Source: Pediococcus acidilactici
Lineage (GTDB): Bacteria > Bacillota > Bacilli > Lactobacillales > Lactobacillaceae
Reading direction: 5' to 3'
Length of the DNA: 64,000 nucleotides
Assembly (NCBI GenBank): GCA_024970065.1
Contig: CP103908.1
Coordinates: forward strand, 1,550,001-1,614,000
This document shows positions 14,056 through 26,072 of the stretch, in pieces. A program made the position numbers and the translations under genes. The notes beneath the pieces were generated by a model. It ran no database searches and had not been told where the DNA came from. It saw nothing but the letters and a program-made list of their open reading frames with translations. Every line of letters begins with the position of its first letter. The first letter of the stretch is position 1.

Positions 14056-15402
14056 TTGAGTAAAGAAATTTCTAACGAATTGATTAACCAATTTAATCAA
14101 GAATATCACGACCGCAAAGAAGCCAAGGTTTTGGAACGTACGGTCACTAAAAACGGAATTTTAAACGCAAGCCGCAACTTAGCTGCTGACGTGCAAAGCA
14201 CCCCGGTTTTCTCCATTGATTTAGACACTGGTGACGTAGCTAACCAAAAACAAAGTGGGCGTTGCTGGATGTTTGCCGCTCTAAACACCATGCGTCACGA
14301 CATGAAAAACCGGTTTAAAGTGCCCGGCAATTTCGAACTCTCCCAAAACTACACCTTCTTCTGGGACAAATTCGAAAAATCAAACTGGTTCTACGAAAAC
14401 ATCATTAAAACCGCAGAACTTGAACCAGACGACCGCAAAGTGGCCTTTCTACTTAACGAACCCCAAGGCGACGGTGGTCAATGGGACATGTTGTGCGCCC
14501 TAATTGAAAAATACGGCGTGGTACCACAATCCGTTTACCCAGAAACATACAATAGTTCTAAATCTCGCGAATTTGACACCCTATTAAACGAAAAACTTCG
14601 TAAAGATGCGATCACCCTCCGTAAGATGGTCCGGGACCAAGCTAGTGACGATGAAATCCAAAGCCGGAAGGAAAAGATGCTTAGCGAAGTTTACCGGATG
14701 GCCGCTTATAGCTTTGGTGAACCACCGGTTAAATTTGATTGGGAATTCCGGGATAGCGATCAAGTTTACCATCGGGAAGCCGGAATCACCCCTAAAGAAT
14801 TTTATGACAAGTACGTGGGCTGGAACCTTGATGACTACGTTTCAATCATTAACGCACCAACTGCGGACAAGCCATTTAACAAGACGTACACAATTGAAAT
14901 GTTAGGTAACGTGGTCAATGGTCGTCCTGTTAAACACTTGAACCTCACCATGAAGGACTTCAAGCAAGCAGCAATCAACCAATTAAAAGCTGGTAAATCG
15001 GTTTGGTTTGGCTGCGACGTTAACCAACATTCGGAAGCTCGTGAAAAGGGACTGCTTGACCTTGACGCCTTTGCGGAAGATGAACTATTTGATATTGACC
15101 TTTCCATGACCAAGGCTGAACGTTTGGACTACAAGGAAAGCTTGATGACCCATGCGATGGTATTAACCGGGGTCGACCTCGTCGATGGTCAACCAACGAA
15201 GTGGAAAGTCGAAAATAGTTGGGGAAAGAAAGTCGGCGAAAAGGGCTACTTGGTAATGTCAGACGCGTGGATGGACGAATACTGCTACCAAGTTGTTGTG
15301 GAAAAACAATACTTGACGGAAGCCCAACGCAAGGCTCAAGCAGAAGAACCAACCGTGTTGAAGCCATGGGATCCGATGGGATCGTTGGCGTACAAGGATT
15401 AG
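14056..15402 (+). CDS. pepC: Aminopeptidase C (bleomycin hydrolase family, C1B)
   Basis: Cytosolic hexameric cysteine aminopeptidase, a main enzyme of peptide use in lactic acid bacteria. The 448-residue protein contains the catalytic Cys segment NQKQSGRCWMFAALNTMRHD (about residue 70), the catalytic His in LMTHAMVLTGVDL and Asn in VENSWGKKVG near the C-terminus. The start is taken as the TTG at 14056-14058 with TTGGAG upstream; another TTG lies at 14041. Its 3' region carries a solitary copy of the hairpin repeat found near levR, then a terminator. Confidence 0.94.
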   Translation: MSKEISNELINQFNQEYHDRKEAKVLERTVTKNGILNASRNLAADVQSTPVFSIDLDTGDVANQKQSGRCWMFAALNTMRHDMKNRFKVPGNFELSQNYTFFWDKFEKSNWFYENIIKTAELEPDDRKVAFLLNEPQGDGGQWDMLCALIEKYGVVPQSVYPETYNSSKSREFDTLLNEKLRKDAITLRKMVRDQASDDEIQSRKEKMLSEVYRMAAYSFGEPPVKFDWEFRDSDQVYHREAGITPKEFYDKYVGWNLDDYVSIINAPTADKPFNKTYTIEMLGNVVNGRPVKHLNLTMKDFKQAAINQLKAGKSVWFGCDVNQHSEAREKGLLDLDAFAEDELFDIDLSMTKAERLDYKESLMTHAMVLTGVDLVDGQPTKWKVENSWGKKVGEKGYLVMSDAWMDEYCYQVVVEKQYLTEAQRKAQAEEPTVLKPWDPMGSLAYKD

Positions 15403-15430
15403 AGCGCAGAAGTCCCTGGGTAGCTTATGA

Positions 15431-15543
15431 GGACTAACAGAATTTAGGGTTTAATTGTGGTTAGGCGATTAAACCATAAATTTGGTTAACCGGAAAAGCT
15501 TGGTGGCTGAAGCTCGTTTCGATTACATTGCAGTGAAAAGCCG
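15431..15543 (+). repeat. Solitary hairpin repeat (type C) downstream of pepC
   Basis: A relative of the array at 25092-25662, in the same sense as pepC. The flank GGACTAACAGAATT is followed by a hairpin (15441-15482) with arms AATTTAGGGTTTAATTGT and GCGATTAAACCATAAATT around GGTTAG. The conserved second domain then reads TTTGGTTAACCGGAAAAGCT, GGCTGAAGCTCGTTTCGA, with a closing AGC at 15538-15542. Arm sequences differ from types A and B but still pair. The element ends about 15 bases before the pepC/gpmA terminator. Confidence 0.7.
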
Positions 15544-20744: not shown

Positions 20745-21206
20745 ATGTTTAATTTTTCAATTAGTTGGTTAATCTTTTGGATGAAGGGCCGGGTAGAAGT
20801 TGACAATCAATCCGTTCGCAGCCGGATCCCGCGGTTATTAATTTGGATTTTCCCATACGGGATGGTTGCCAAGGACGTTAACTTAGCCGATATTAAGGCT
20901 ACCGAGGTTAAGGGGAAGACCCAAGCCTTCCCCCTCTTGTTGGGCATCGTTTTAATTGTTTTAGGGATTTTAAGCGCAATGAATGACGGAGTTGGTTTAG
21001 GGATTTTGGCGATTGTAATCGGGATCATCCTAGGAGGCGCAGGTTTTAAAGCCCGCTTAGTATTGAATACCACTCAGGGCACCGTCAATTTTGACGCAGT
21101 TGCTTTCCACAAGGACGTTCTCGTTCAGATTGCCCAAGAAATAAAAAATCGGCAAACCAAGCCAGAACCACAAATTAAGGACAACCAAGTTCTCGAAGAA
21201 CTATAA
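20745..21206 (+). CDS. Hypothetical small membrane protein
   Basis: I do not recognise a named family. The 153 residues contain an N-terminal basic segment (VDNQSVRSRIPRLL), two adjacent hydrophobic helices (about residues 62-81 and 86-103; LLLGIVLIVLGILSAM and GLGILAIVIGIILGGAG), and a soluble C-terminal tail ending in acidic residues. It looks like a bacterial PH-like or DUF-type membrane-anchored protein. The ATG follows GGAGG by 9 bases, and a strong terminator follows the gene, so it is a single-gene unit. Confidence 0.75.
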   Translation: MFNFSISWLIFWMKGRVEVDNQSVRSRIPRLLIWIFPYGMVAKDVNLADIKATEVKGKTQAFPLLLGIVLIVLGILSAMNDGVGLGILAIVIGIILGGAGFKARLVLNTTQGTVNFDAVAFHKDVLVQIAQEIKNRQTKPEPQIKDNQVLEEL

Positions 21207-21285
21207 CCGCTTCGTTTTACCAATGAAGTATCCTTTAACTGAAAAAACGTGGAACAAAGGTTGGTTAGTTTATAGTCATTAACTG

Positions 21286-21329
21286 AAAATCGACTATTAT
21301 GCCAGATACAGGCATAATAGTCGATTTTT
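21286..21329 (+). terminator. Terminator of the small membrane protein gene
   Basis: AAAATCGACTATTATGCC and GGCATAATAGTCGATTTT form an 18-bp perfect stem around AGATACA, followed by T residues. Confidence 0.92.
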
Positions 21330-21353
21330 GTTTGGGTTAAACAAGGCATACTG

Positions 21354-21400
21354 CCTTTTGGCGCACGTTTTTACCCCATTAAAGGCAAATCGCCAAAAGG
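21354..21400. repeat. 10-bp inverted repeat CCTTTTGGCG downstream of the orphan EIIB
   Basis: CCTTTTGGCG (21354-21363) is inverted as CGCCAAAAGG (21391-21400), with a 27-base spacer that also contains GGCA/TGCC pairing. It lies 38 bases after the EIIB stop. There is no immediate T-run, so its role (weak terminator or RNA stabiliser) is uncertain. Confidence 0.45.
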
Positions 21401-25012: not shown

Positions 25013-25058
25013 CAAGTTAAGGCCCTGACCAGTTTATTACGGTCGGGGCCTTAACTTG
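25013..25058. repeat. 18-bp inverted repeat at the end of the hairpin array
   Basis: CAAGTTAAGGCCCTGACC (25013-25030) and GGTCGGGGCCTTAACTTG (25041-25058) pair over 18 positions with one G-U, around a 10-base loop. It follows the array in the sense direction (minus), but has no T-run on either strand. It could be an mRNA 3'-end stabiliser or another hairpin repeat member lacking the second domain. Confidence 0.6.
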
Positions 25059-25091: not shown

Positions 25092-25662
25092 AGGATACTC
25101 TACTATCGTCATGCTGAAACAAGCTCCAGCCCTTAGCTTCTTCCGGTTAACCAAATATAAGGACCAACCGCCTAGCCCGCGGTTAGTCCTTATATTCCGT
25201 TAATCTTGCCGTCCTACTGCTGCCGTGTCAAAATGGGCTCCGAAACCCAGCTCTTTCCGGTTAATCAAATCCCCCACCAATCGCCTAAATCGCGATTAAT
25301 GGGGGATCCAATTAATATTCTGCTCTCCTACTGCCGCCATGTCGAAATGAGCTCCAGCCCCTAGCTTCTTCCGGTTAACCAAATATAAGGACCAACCGCC
25401 TAGCCCGCGGTTAGTCCTTATATTCCGTTAATCCTGCCGTCCTACTGCTGCCGTGTCGAAACGGGCTCCGTACCCCAGCTCTTTCCGGTTAATCAAATCC
25501 CCCATCAATCGCCTAAACCGCGATTAATGGGGGATTCAATTAATATTCTGCTCTCCTACTGCCGCCATGTCGAAATGAGCTCCAGCCCCTAGCTTCTTCC
25601 GGTTAACCAAATATAAGGACCAACCGCCCAGCCCGCGGTTAGTCCTTATATTCCGTTAATCC
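25092..25662 (-). repeat. Tandem array of five ~115-bp hairpin repeats (A1-B1-A2-B2-A3)
   Basis: In plus coordinates the units are A1 25092-25206, B1 25207-25319, A2 25320-25434, B2 25435-25547 and A3 25548-25662; the A-B pair repeats with a 228-base period. In the minus sense each unit starts with a long hairpin. Type A arms are AATATAAGGACTAACCGC / GCGGTTGGTCCTTATATT; type B arms are AATCCCCCATTAATCGC / GCGATTGATGGGGGATT. Both have a G-U at the same position and a loop of the form GGNYTAG. A conserved domain follows: TTTGRTTAACCGGAARRAGCT, then GGAGCYC, TTTCGACAYGGC and CAGTAGGA. A closing GCTC/GAGC (A) or GCC/GGC (B) pair covaries. A1 is the most decayed. No open reading frame is conserved. 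It lies downstream of the DUF956 gene in the same sense. Confidence 0.88.
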
Positions 25663-25691
25663 TCACAAGCTGCCCAAGGGGCTTCCGCTCT

Positions 25692-26072
25692 CTATTTTCG
25701 TATCCTTCTCCACACTTCTTTTAATCCGCGCTTTACTACGTCTACTACTCCTAGTGAGCGGACCATTCTTTCCTCATCCACGTATTTGCGAATTCCTCTC
25801 AACAATTCGTGGGGCTGCCTTGCCGCAAAGCTGAAAGTTCCACTATGCTTGGTTTTAATTGCGAACCGGGGAATCCACCTTCCCCCAAACATTAACGACG
25901 CAATTACCTTGTCGACTTCCTTCCACGGAATTTGAATGTAGTTTTTTACGTTGCGGTTATCAAAAAATTCAAAACCACGGTCGCCAATCATTATTTTGCC
26001 GTAATCCCCCATTCCAAGAAATGAGGTTGCGTCCGTAACTTGGTCCACCTTGGTGTTAATCGATTGTACCAT
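25692..26072 (-). CDS. DUF956 family protein, mannose PTS-associated (ManO-like)
   Basis: A 126-residue protein of the DUF956 family, regularly found after man PTS operons in lactobacilli, streptococci and Listeria. Visible segments are ATSFLGMGDYGKIMIGDRGF and YIQIPWKEVDKVIASLMFGG with RFAIKTKHSGTFSF. The fold is probably PH-like. It may modulate PTS expression (the lactococcal/Listeria homologue has been called ManO), but the mechanism is unclear. A terminator separates it from manZ, and it has its own promoter, so it can be uncoupled from manXYZ. Confidence 0.85.
   Translation of the reverse strand: MVQSINTKVDQVTDATSFLGMGDYGKIMIGDRGFEFFDNRNVKNYIQIPWKEVDKVIASLMFGGRWIPRFAIKTKHSGTFSFAARQPHELLRGIRKYVDEERMVRSLGVVDVVKRGLKEVWRRIRK

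Follow-up and report, generated by a model that had tools for sequence, protein, structure and literature searches.

A dispersed repeat predicted to fold as a single rod, often at stop codons, in Pediococcus acidilactici and other Lactobacillaceae

The tandem array that follows the DUF956 gene in our window (the whole 64,000-nucleotide stretch of the Pediococcus acidilactici genome analysed here) is one copy of a dispersed repeat that we found in about half of the sampled Lactobacillaceae genomes, and in its complete form it has an outer helix made with a leader at the stop codon of the host gene. Neither the dispersal nor this outer helix had been foreseen in an earlier note on the window that was made from the sequence alone. 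To the reading that this is an RNA element kept for a role in the stability or processing of mRNA 3' ends, with a history as a mobile repeat, we give about even weight.

The array runs in the order A-B-A-B-A on the minus strand (25094-25663), its five units all in one orientation and spaced 114 bases apart, and like units are 92-93% identical to their first copy; the earlier note had described the single orientation and the 228-base A+B period correctly. The A-type hairpin arms (AATATAAGGACTAACCGC/GCGGTTGGTCCTTATATT) and the B-type arms (AATCCCCCATTAATCGC and its partner) are each paired on the minus strand, are unrelated to each other, and have a G-U at the same place, again as described, with the addition that the second B copy has two G-U pairs. 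The 711-nt array region has a predicted fold of -320 kcal/mol (z = -15.3 against 20 shuffles). The note had placed the array at the 3' end of the DUF956 gene in its sense direction; position and direction held, but the extent did not, as the element starts 30 bases farther upstream and overlaps the stop codon. These 30 bases are the leader, lying upstream of unit A1 and pairing with a segment 3' of the hairpin, so that its 5' strand adds two helices, an outer one, P1, and a second one, P2; leader bases 1-2 supply the AG of TAG, the stop codon of DUF956 (offset +2). Because the leader lies upstream and overlaps the stop codon, the outer helix had been overlooked. The genes before the DUF956 gene presumably form a mannose-PTS operon. 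Between the array and a PRD/sigma-54-activator gene there is also an 18-bp inverted repeat (window 25013-25058) without a T run, which was not seen in the sequence of the comparison genome, P. acidilactici G001.

A search of the window's own genome (G000) with the 228-base query gave 52 matches, ruling out a unique local array. With a five-unit profile run over 31 loci and the window we saw 87 unit matches, some of them partial or doubtful, in 37 oriented arrays of 1-5 units each. Across these loci the units are mostly 100-128 nt apart, and most internal units lack a leader, complete tandem copies occurring at L048, L050 and L057. We aligned 32 of the 37 array starts (alignment A1, which omits L061, L062 and L070 as partial, and L050-minus and L053 as another subtype) and built from them a covariance model of 44 pairs, R1; covariance-model searches found eight further complete copies outside the 31 loci and the window. 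Coordinates of the features in the window are collected in the table.

Table. Repeat copies, their parts and the host gene in the window
Feature	Position	Strand	Remarks
First complete element (leader, hairpin A, closing strands)	25564..25693	-	Full-length R1 match (model 1-129), 126.0 bits, E 2.2e-34; itself one of the 32 rows used to build R1
Leader: AGAGC, P1 5' strand, conserved one-sided bulge, P2 5' strand	25664..25693	-	
Unit A1	25550..25663	-	Arms 25603-25627 / 25635-25659
Unit B1	25436..25549	-	Without leader; arms 25489-25512 / 25520-25543
Unit A2	25322..25435	-	Without leader; arms 25375-25399 / 25407-25431
Unit B2	25208..25321	-	Without leader; arms 25261-25284 / 25292-25315
Unit A3	25094..25207	-	Without leader; arms 25147-25171 / 25179-25203
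DUF956 gene (PF06115), host gene	25692..26072	-	Stop codon overlaps element
Second copy, single	15401..15528	+	102.6 bits; at TAG stop (offset +2) of 453-aa ORF; also a row of R1
Weak third copy, GTGGRACAAA subtype	21246..21379	+	40.5 bits, E 1.1e-8

The 453-aa ORF at the second copy we take to be aminopeptidase C, and G001 has the element at the same gene end. The third copy begins ~40 nt past the stop of a 153-aa ORF (20745-21206) and belongs to a subtype with GTGGRACAAA at its base, also seen at L050 and L053, in which some copies start farther past the stop codon. L050 has two elements pointing towards each other in the space between converging genes. At L042 (~2410-2460) the downstream terminator hairpin resembles the B hairpin of the neighbouring array plus a T run, and looks as if an array unit had turned into a terminator.

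The complete element, ~125 nt, is predicted to fold as one rod of 44 pairs, in the order P1 (variable), a one-sided bulge CGGKTA, P2, a GA/GGA internal loop, P3 (TTAAC/GTTAA), P4 (the variable arms) and a capped loop. In A1, 96.1% of cells are paired, against 77.8% after shuffling and at most 48.9% with slid partners, and a double compensatory change is found at 35 of the 44 pairs within this one genome. The earlier note had asked for homologues with covarying arms elsewhere, and these exist: among 59 matches from 41 loci in other genomes, in an alignment fitted to R1, all 44 pairs show double changes and 93.6% of cells are paired, against at most 42.5% with slid partners. With three mostly-wobble columns dropped, G-U occupies 61 cells and A-C only 7, and 31 of 32 elements have a better fold on the sense than on the antisense strand. 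Conservation extends to several unpaired bases: the element opens with AGAG, its one-sided bulge contains CGG, its internal loop GAG and GGA, and GTTT comes after P1. Taken together, the strand-specific pairing signal and the conserved unpaired bases point to recognition of the folded sense strand. One earlier claim survived only locally: a helix can be drawn in the window for the closing pairs of a "second domain" (GCTC/GAGC versus GCC/GGC), but we rejected it as a general feature, since a test over 31 candidate junctions, using a pattern that also caught some unrelated sequence, gave p = 0.09.

The covariance-model search of Pediococcus and Lactobacillaceae that the note had suggested was productive. 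Counted as E-value-limited matches among the best-scored candidates, and including units without a leader and some cases of one copy echoed on the reverse strand, R1 matches were present in 12/12 genus genomes (1 to 126 per genome, with 126 in G000 and 121 in G001 among the best 150 candidates scored), in 102 of 201 Lactobacillaceae genomes and 22 of 40 genera (E <= 1e-3, with a filter scoring few candidates), and in 19 of 246 Lactobacillales genomes (E <= 1e-5), 12 of these being in Lactobacillaceae and 7 in three other families. A deeper search of Lactobacillaceae matched 19 of 39 genomes (E <= 1e-6), with up to 80 matches in one genome of another genus; two genomes of another Lactobacillales family had one match each (E 6e-7 and 8e-14), and in a class-wide sample of 299 genomes R1 matched its own genome only. 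Hosts named among the first 80 of 120 pattern stretches included Levilactobacillus, Lactiplantibacillus, Companilactobacillus, Paucilactobacillus, Latilactobacillus, Lacticaseibacillus and Pediococcus. Since 99 of the 201 family genomes had no match at E <= 1e-3 under the filter scoring few candidates, and since the number per genome varies so widely within the genus, the element is dispensable. Plasmid and phage collections gave no blastn match for the window's element, nor did the plasmid collection for element L143 of genome G323; as single queries were used, distant copies could be missed. Viral contigs held one exact-pattern match (L266, IMGVR_UViG_3300002098_000831), which may be host sequence.

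The elements tend to start at stop codons. In the window genome, 20 of 37 complete elements begin no more than 4 nt from the stop of an ORF with 60 or more codons, against 1.7% at random (the 37 come from 41 full-length matches of at least 60 bits, four leaderless internal units being omitted), and in the G001 stretches plus the window the figure is 25 of 50 against 1.5% (48 elements from P. acidilactici G001 and two from the window, all at least 60 bits). The commonest offset is +2, at which the element supplies the AG of TAG (11 cases in the window genome and 14 in the G001 and window set). In named genomes from several genera, 46 of 94 elements lie within -10..+14 of a stop, against 5% at random and 3 of 86 for genes on the opposite strand; of 111 matches, 101 entered this test (P. 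acidilactici and those below 58 bits omitted) and 94 were scored, leaving out five array followers and two too near a contig end. By a home-made rule applied without a control, a terminator-like hairpin lies at most 260 nt downstream in 18 of 34 arrays, the window's own array having none by the same rule. From the stop-codon register and these downstream hairpins, the element thus often lies in the predicted 3' UTR, after the stop codon and before a terminator. The host genes are varied and mutually unrelated (Pfam assignments for nine; trpS, ndk, a response regulator and GMP reductase are among them) and have no obvious common theme. At the stop of trpS, which has an R1 element in the window genome, four of nine other genus genomes have a different hairpin repeat of similar plan (L295 in G008, L296 in G003, L297 in G007 and L298 in G005), whose long arms are variable and self-complementary, on a base such as GAGACAAAGCGGTA ... 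TTGACTTGTCGAGCTGTCC, and whose tip is GCGGGATYGCAATCCCGC in L297 and L298 and nearly so in L296.

We compared the arrays in place with those of G001, a P. acidilactici genome that our analysis treats as a between-species comparison. Thirty of the 37 arrays have an orthologous site in the G001 stretches, which were chosen around P. acidilactici matches and are biased in that respect, and element sequence is present at 30/30 (28 by unit profile and two by alignment and covariance model), with differing numbers of units. At four further sites looked up without that bias the element was at the same gene end in 4/4, so that both genomes have it at 34/34 sites compared. Three arrays were not compared separately (L062 and L070, which are partial, and the second L041 array, which shares its site with the first). 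At the DUF956 gene the G001 array is A-B, and its arms are 98-100% similar to those of the first two units in the window. At L041 a stretch with a small ParE-like gene lies between two complete elements, and G001 is without the stretch and has one element left, a possible case of gene loss or gain through recombination between elements.

Ten like-for-like first elements (identity >= 0.9, a cut-off that lowers the apparent divergence) differ at 41 of 1154 positions, and four-fold sites in nine comparable neighbouring genes at 244 of 1377; where a change in these elements hit one side of a formed pair, pairing survived in 15 of 21 cases. A broader set of 35 unit pairs (identity >= 0.75, with the same effect on divergence, and with units of one array not independent) has 123 of 1590 stem positions changed (7.7%) and 110 of 580 unpaired positions (19%), against 581 of 2937 four-fold sites in 21 neighbouring genes (18-20% over the range of comparisons). 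Pairing in this set survived 50 of 89 one-sided changes (expectation 27-40%) and 14 of 17 double changes. With fewer changes in stems than at unpaired and four-fold positions, unpaired positions thus drift like silent sites and stems are held. The earlier note's view that the fold is under selection, most likely as RNA, is therefore strengthened by the double changes at 35 of 44 pairs, the preference for G-U over A-C, and the slower change of stems.

Some loci do not fit this picture. At seven of them (L042, L046, L047, L048, L052, L064 and L067) the first unit in G001 is of the window genome's second type, and the pairing of each leader is stronger with the first unit of its own genome (-15.9 to -25.0 kcal/mol) than with that of the other genome. 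This could reflect differential loss from an ancestral set of several complete elements, or copying of leaders from the partner strand. At the orthologous element L068/L301 the arms are almost wholly different and yet paired in both genomes, with an identical closing segment GGTGGCTGGA. Pairing is thus renewable wholesale, and DNA-level copying or unit exchange could also renew it, so such a process may add to the pairing signal. That it accounts for the pairing outright, with hairpin-templated repair or replication slippage copying one arm from the other, would suit both the seven switched leaders and L068/L301, but we consider it very unlikely: the conserved unpaired bases (AGAG, CGG, GAG, GGA, GTTT) and the excess of G-U over A-C need a strand-specific reason, one-sided changes that keep the pair through G-U are common, and one of the seven loci, L048, is a tandem run of complete elements, every one with a leader, and the switching may therefore be explained by simple loss or reordering. 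A part in transcription termination, as an unusual intrinsic terminator or pause hairpin, is suggested by the place of the element between stop codon and next gene and by the GTTT tract after P1. We think it very unlikely, as there are only three T after P1, the 18 of 34 arrays with a terminator-like hairpin by our uncontrolled rule have it as a separate structure downstream, and within the window's array the terminator-like calls amount to short pieces of the P4 tip.

A purely selfish miniature mobile element, with its folded single strand read by some recombinase and its copies surviving beside stop codons because an insertion does the least damage there, would fit the many dispersed matches, the tandem arrays, the patchy distribution and the lack of a theme among host genes, and the authors of the pneumococcal BOX, RUP and SPRITE families read those as parasitic elements (PMC3049150). 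We hold this to be unlikely on balance: with 34/34 sites occupied in both genomes (30 from the biased choice, 4/4 unbiased) no recent insertion was seen, stems evolve more slowly than unpaired and four-fold sites, plasmid and phage collections gave no blastn match and viral contigs one exact-pattern match, and G000 and G001 have no match to Y1 transposase (PF01797), the sole transposase searched, which was found in one of 12 genus genomes (G007). The ends of the element, AGAG...GTTTC, are weakly inverted. Looking for empty sites that might reveal a target duplication, we saw terminator-like sequence or other genes at the DUF956 stop in other genus genomes; in G009-G011, by eye, terminator-like sequence follows DUF956 at the element's place in G000/G001, with divergence too high for boundaries.

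We therefore return to the RNA element retained at mRNA 3' ends. The element probably arose and spread long ago as a BOX/EFAR-like repeat, and our best reading is that selection on the folded mRNA form now keeps it where it is; among the roles proposed in the earlier note (a processed small-RNA cluster, an mRNA 3' stabiliser and a sponge), a 3' stabiliser is the most plausible candidate. We infer that the element is transcribed, as we do any effect on mRNA decay, processing or termination. The host gene would be transcribed through the element, and once the last ribosome left the stop codon, which adjoins the foot of the rod, the ~125-nt tail would close into a long interrupted helix. This rod could then serve at the mRNA 3' end as a barrier, binding or processing site (an exonuclease block, or a target of RNase III or a protein), with tandem units supplying further hairpins. 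A tentative but credible extension is that the element represents a new class of structured RNA at stop codons, in which a protein or the ribosome would read the bulges and loops and the arms would be free to change so long as they stayed paired, thereby becoming locus-specific barcodes; in the same proposal a second repeat of like plan would take up comparable sites in other members of Pediococcus.

If the retained-RNA reading is right, dozens of genes per genome in many lactobacilli, including food and probiotic ones, end in an undescribed structured element that routine genome annotation overlooks because Rfam lacks it. The copies form a natural library, with one fold, many arm sequences and a near-constant stop-codon register, in which effects on mRNA decay, 3' processing and termination are directly testable. 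The element also offers a test of whether small dispersed repeats of the BOX/EFAR type are parasites or functional RNA.

The earlier note had not recognised a known Rfam motif, REP/BIME or CRISPR in the array, and our searches agree. Rfam 15 gave no match at the array when the whole window was searched at gathering score and none at elements in 13 loci at E <= 1; at E <= 5 in six loci there were three sub-threshold microRNA-family matches at element positions (E 2.3-4.2). We did not find the family described in the open-access papers searched, and as most subscription papers fell outside this scope its absence from print is unproven. CRISPR was rejected on the near-identical 228-bp A+B units and the lack of a spacer pattern. 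REP/BIME sequences are clustered extragenic palindromes downstream of genes, and REPs are tied to Y1/RAYT transposases. REPs are palindromes of 20-40 bp (PMC3733652). The present element differs on both counts, being ~125 nt long with no Y1 match in the two copy-richest genomes (G000 and G001), and REP/BIME was ruled out for these reasons. Integron attC sites are structure-recognised, sequence-variable hairpins just downstream of an ORF in sense orientation, and our element is like them in having a sequence-variable hairpin just downstream of an ORF in sense orientation, a likeness of plan only from which we claim no membership. EFAR, which we take to be the same as Efa-1, integrates into terminator-like stem-loops. 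It is listed among MITEs in one paper (PMC3733652), and Efa-1 of Enterococcus faecalis is described as 163 bp long with 65 copies and a pair of adjacent stem-loops (PMC2267715). By these descriptions EFAR/Efa-1, which is ~160 bp long and comes from another member of the order, is alike in being a dispersed, folded intergenic repeat, and differs in its two adjacent stem-loops from the one coaxial rod seen here, with its outer helix at the stop codon. BOX (boxA-boxBn-boxC) comes close in plan, again as described: its start module is fixed, its middle units vary in number, and it is structured, partly shown to be transcribed, present in > 100 copies per genome and of low current mobility (PMC3049150). 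BOX is known from a few streptococci, and the available part of that paper does not mention a stop-codon register, whereas the element described here has locus-specific, compensated arms and occurs in many genera of Lactobacillaceae.
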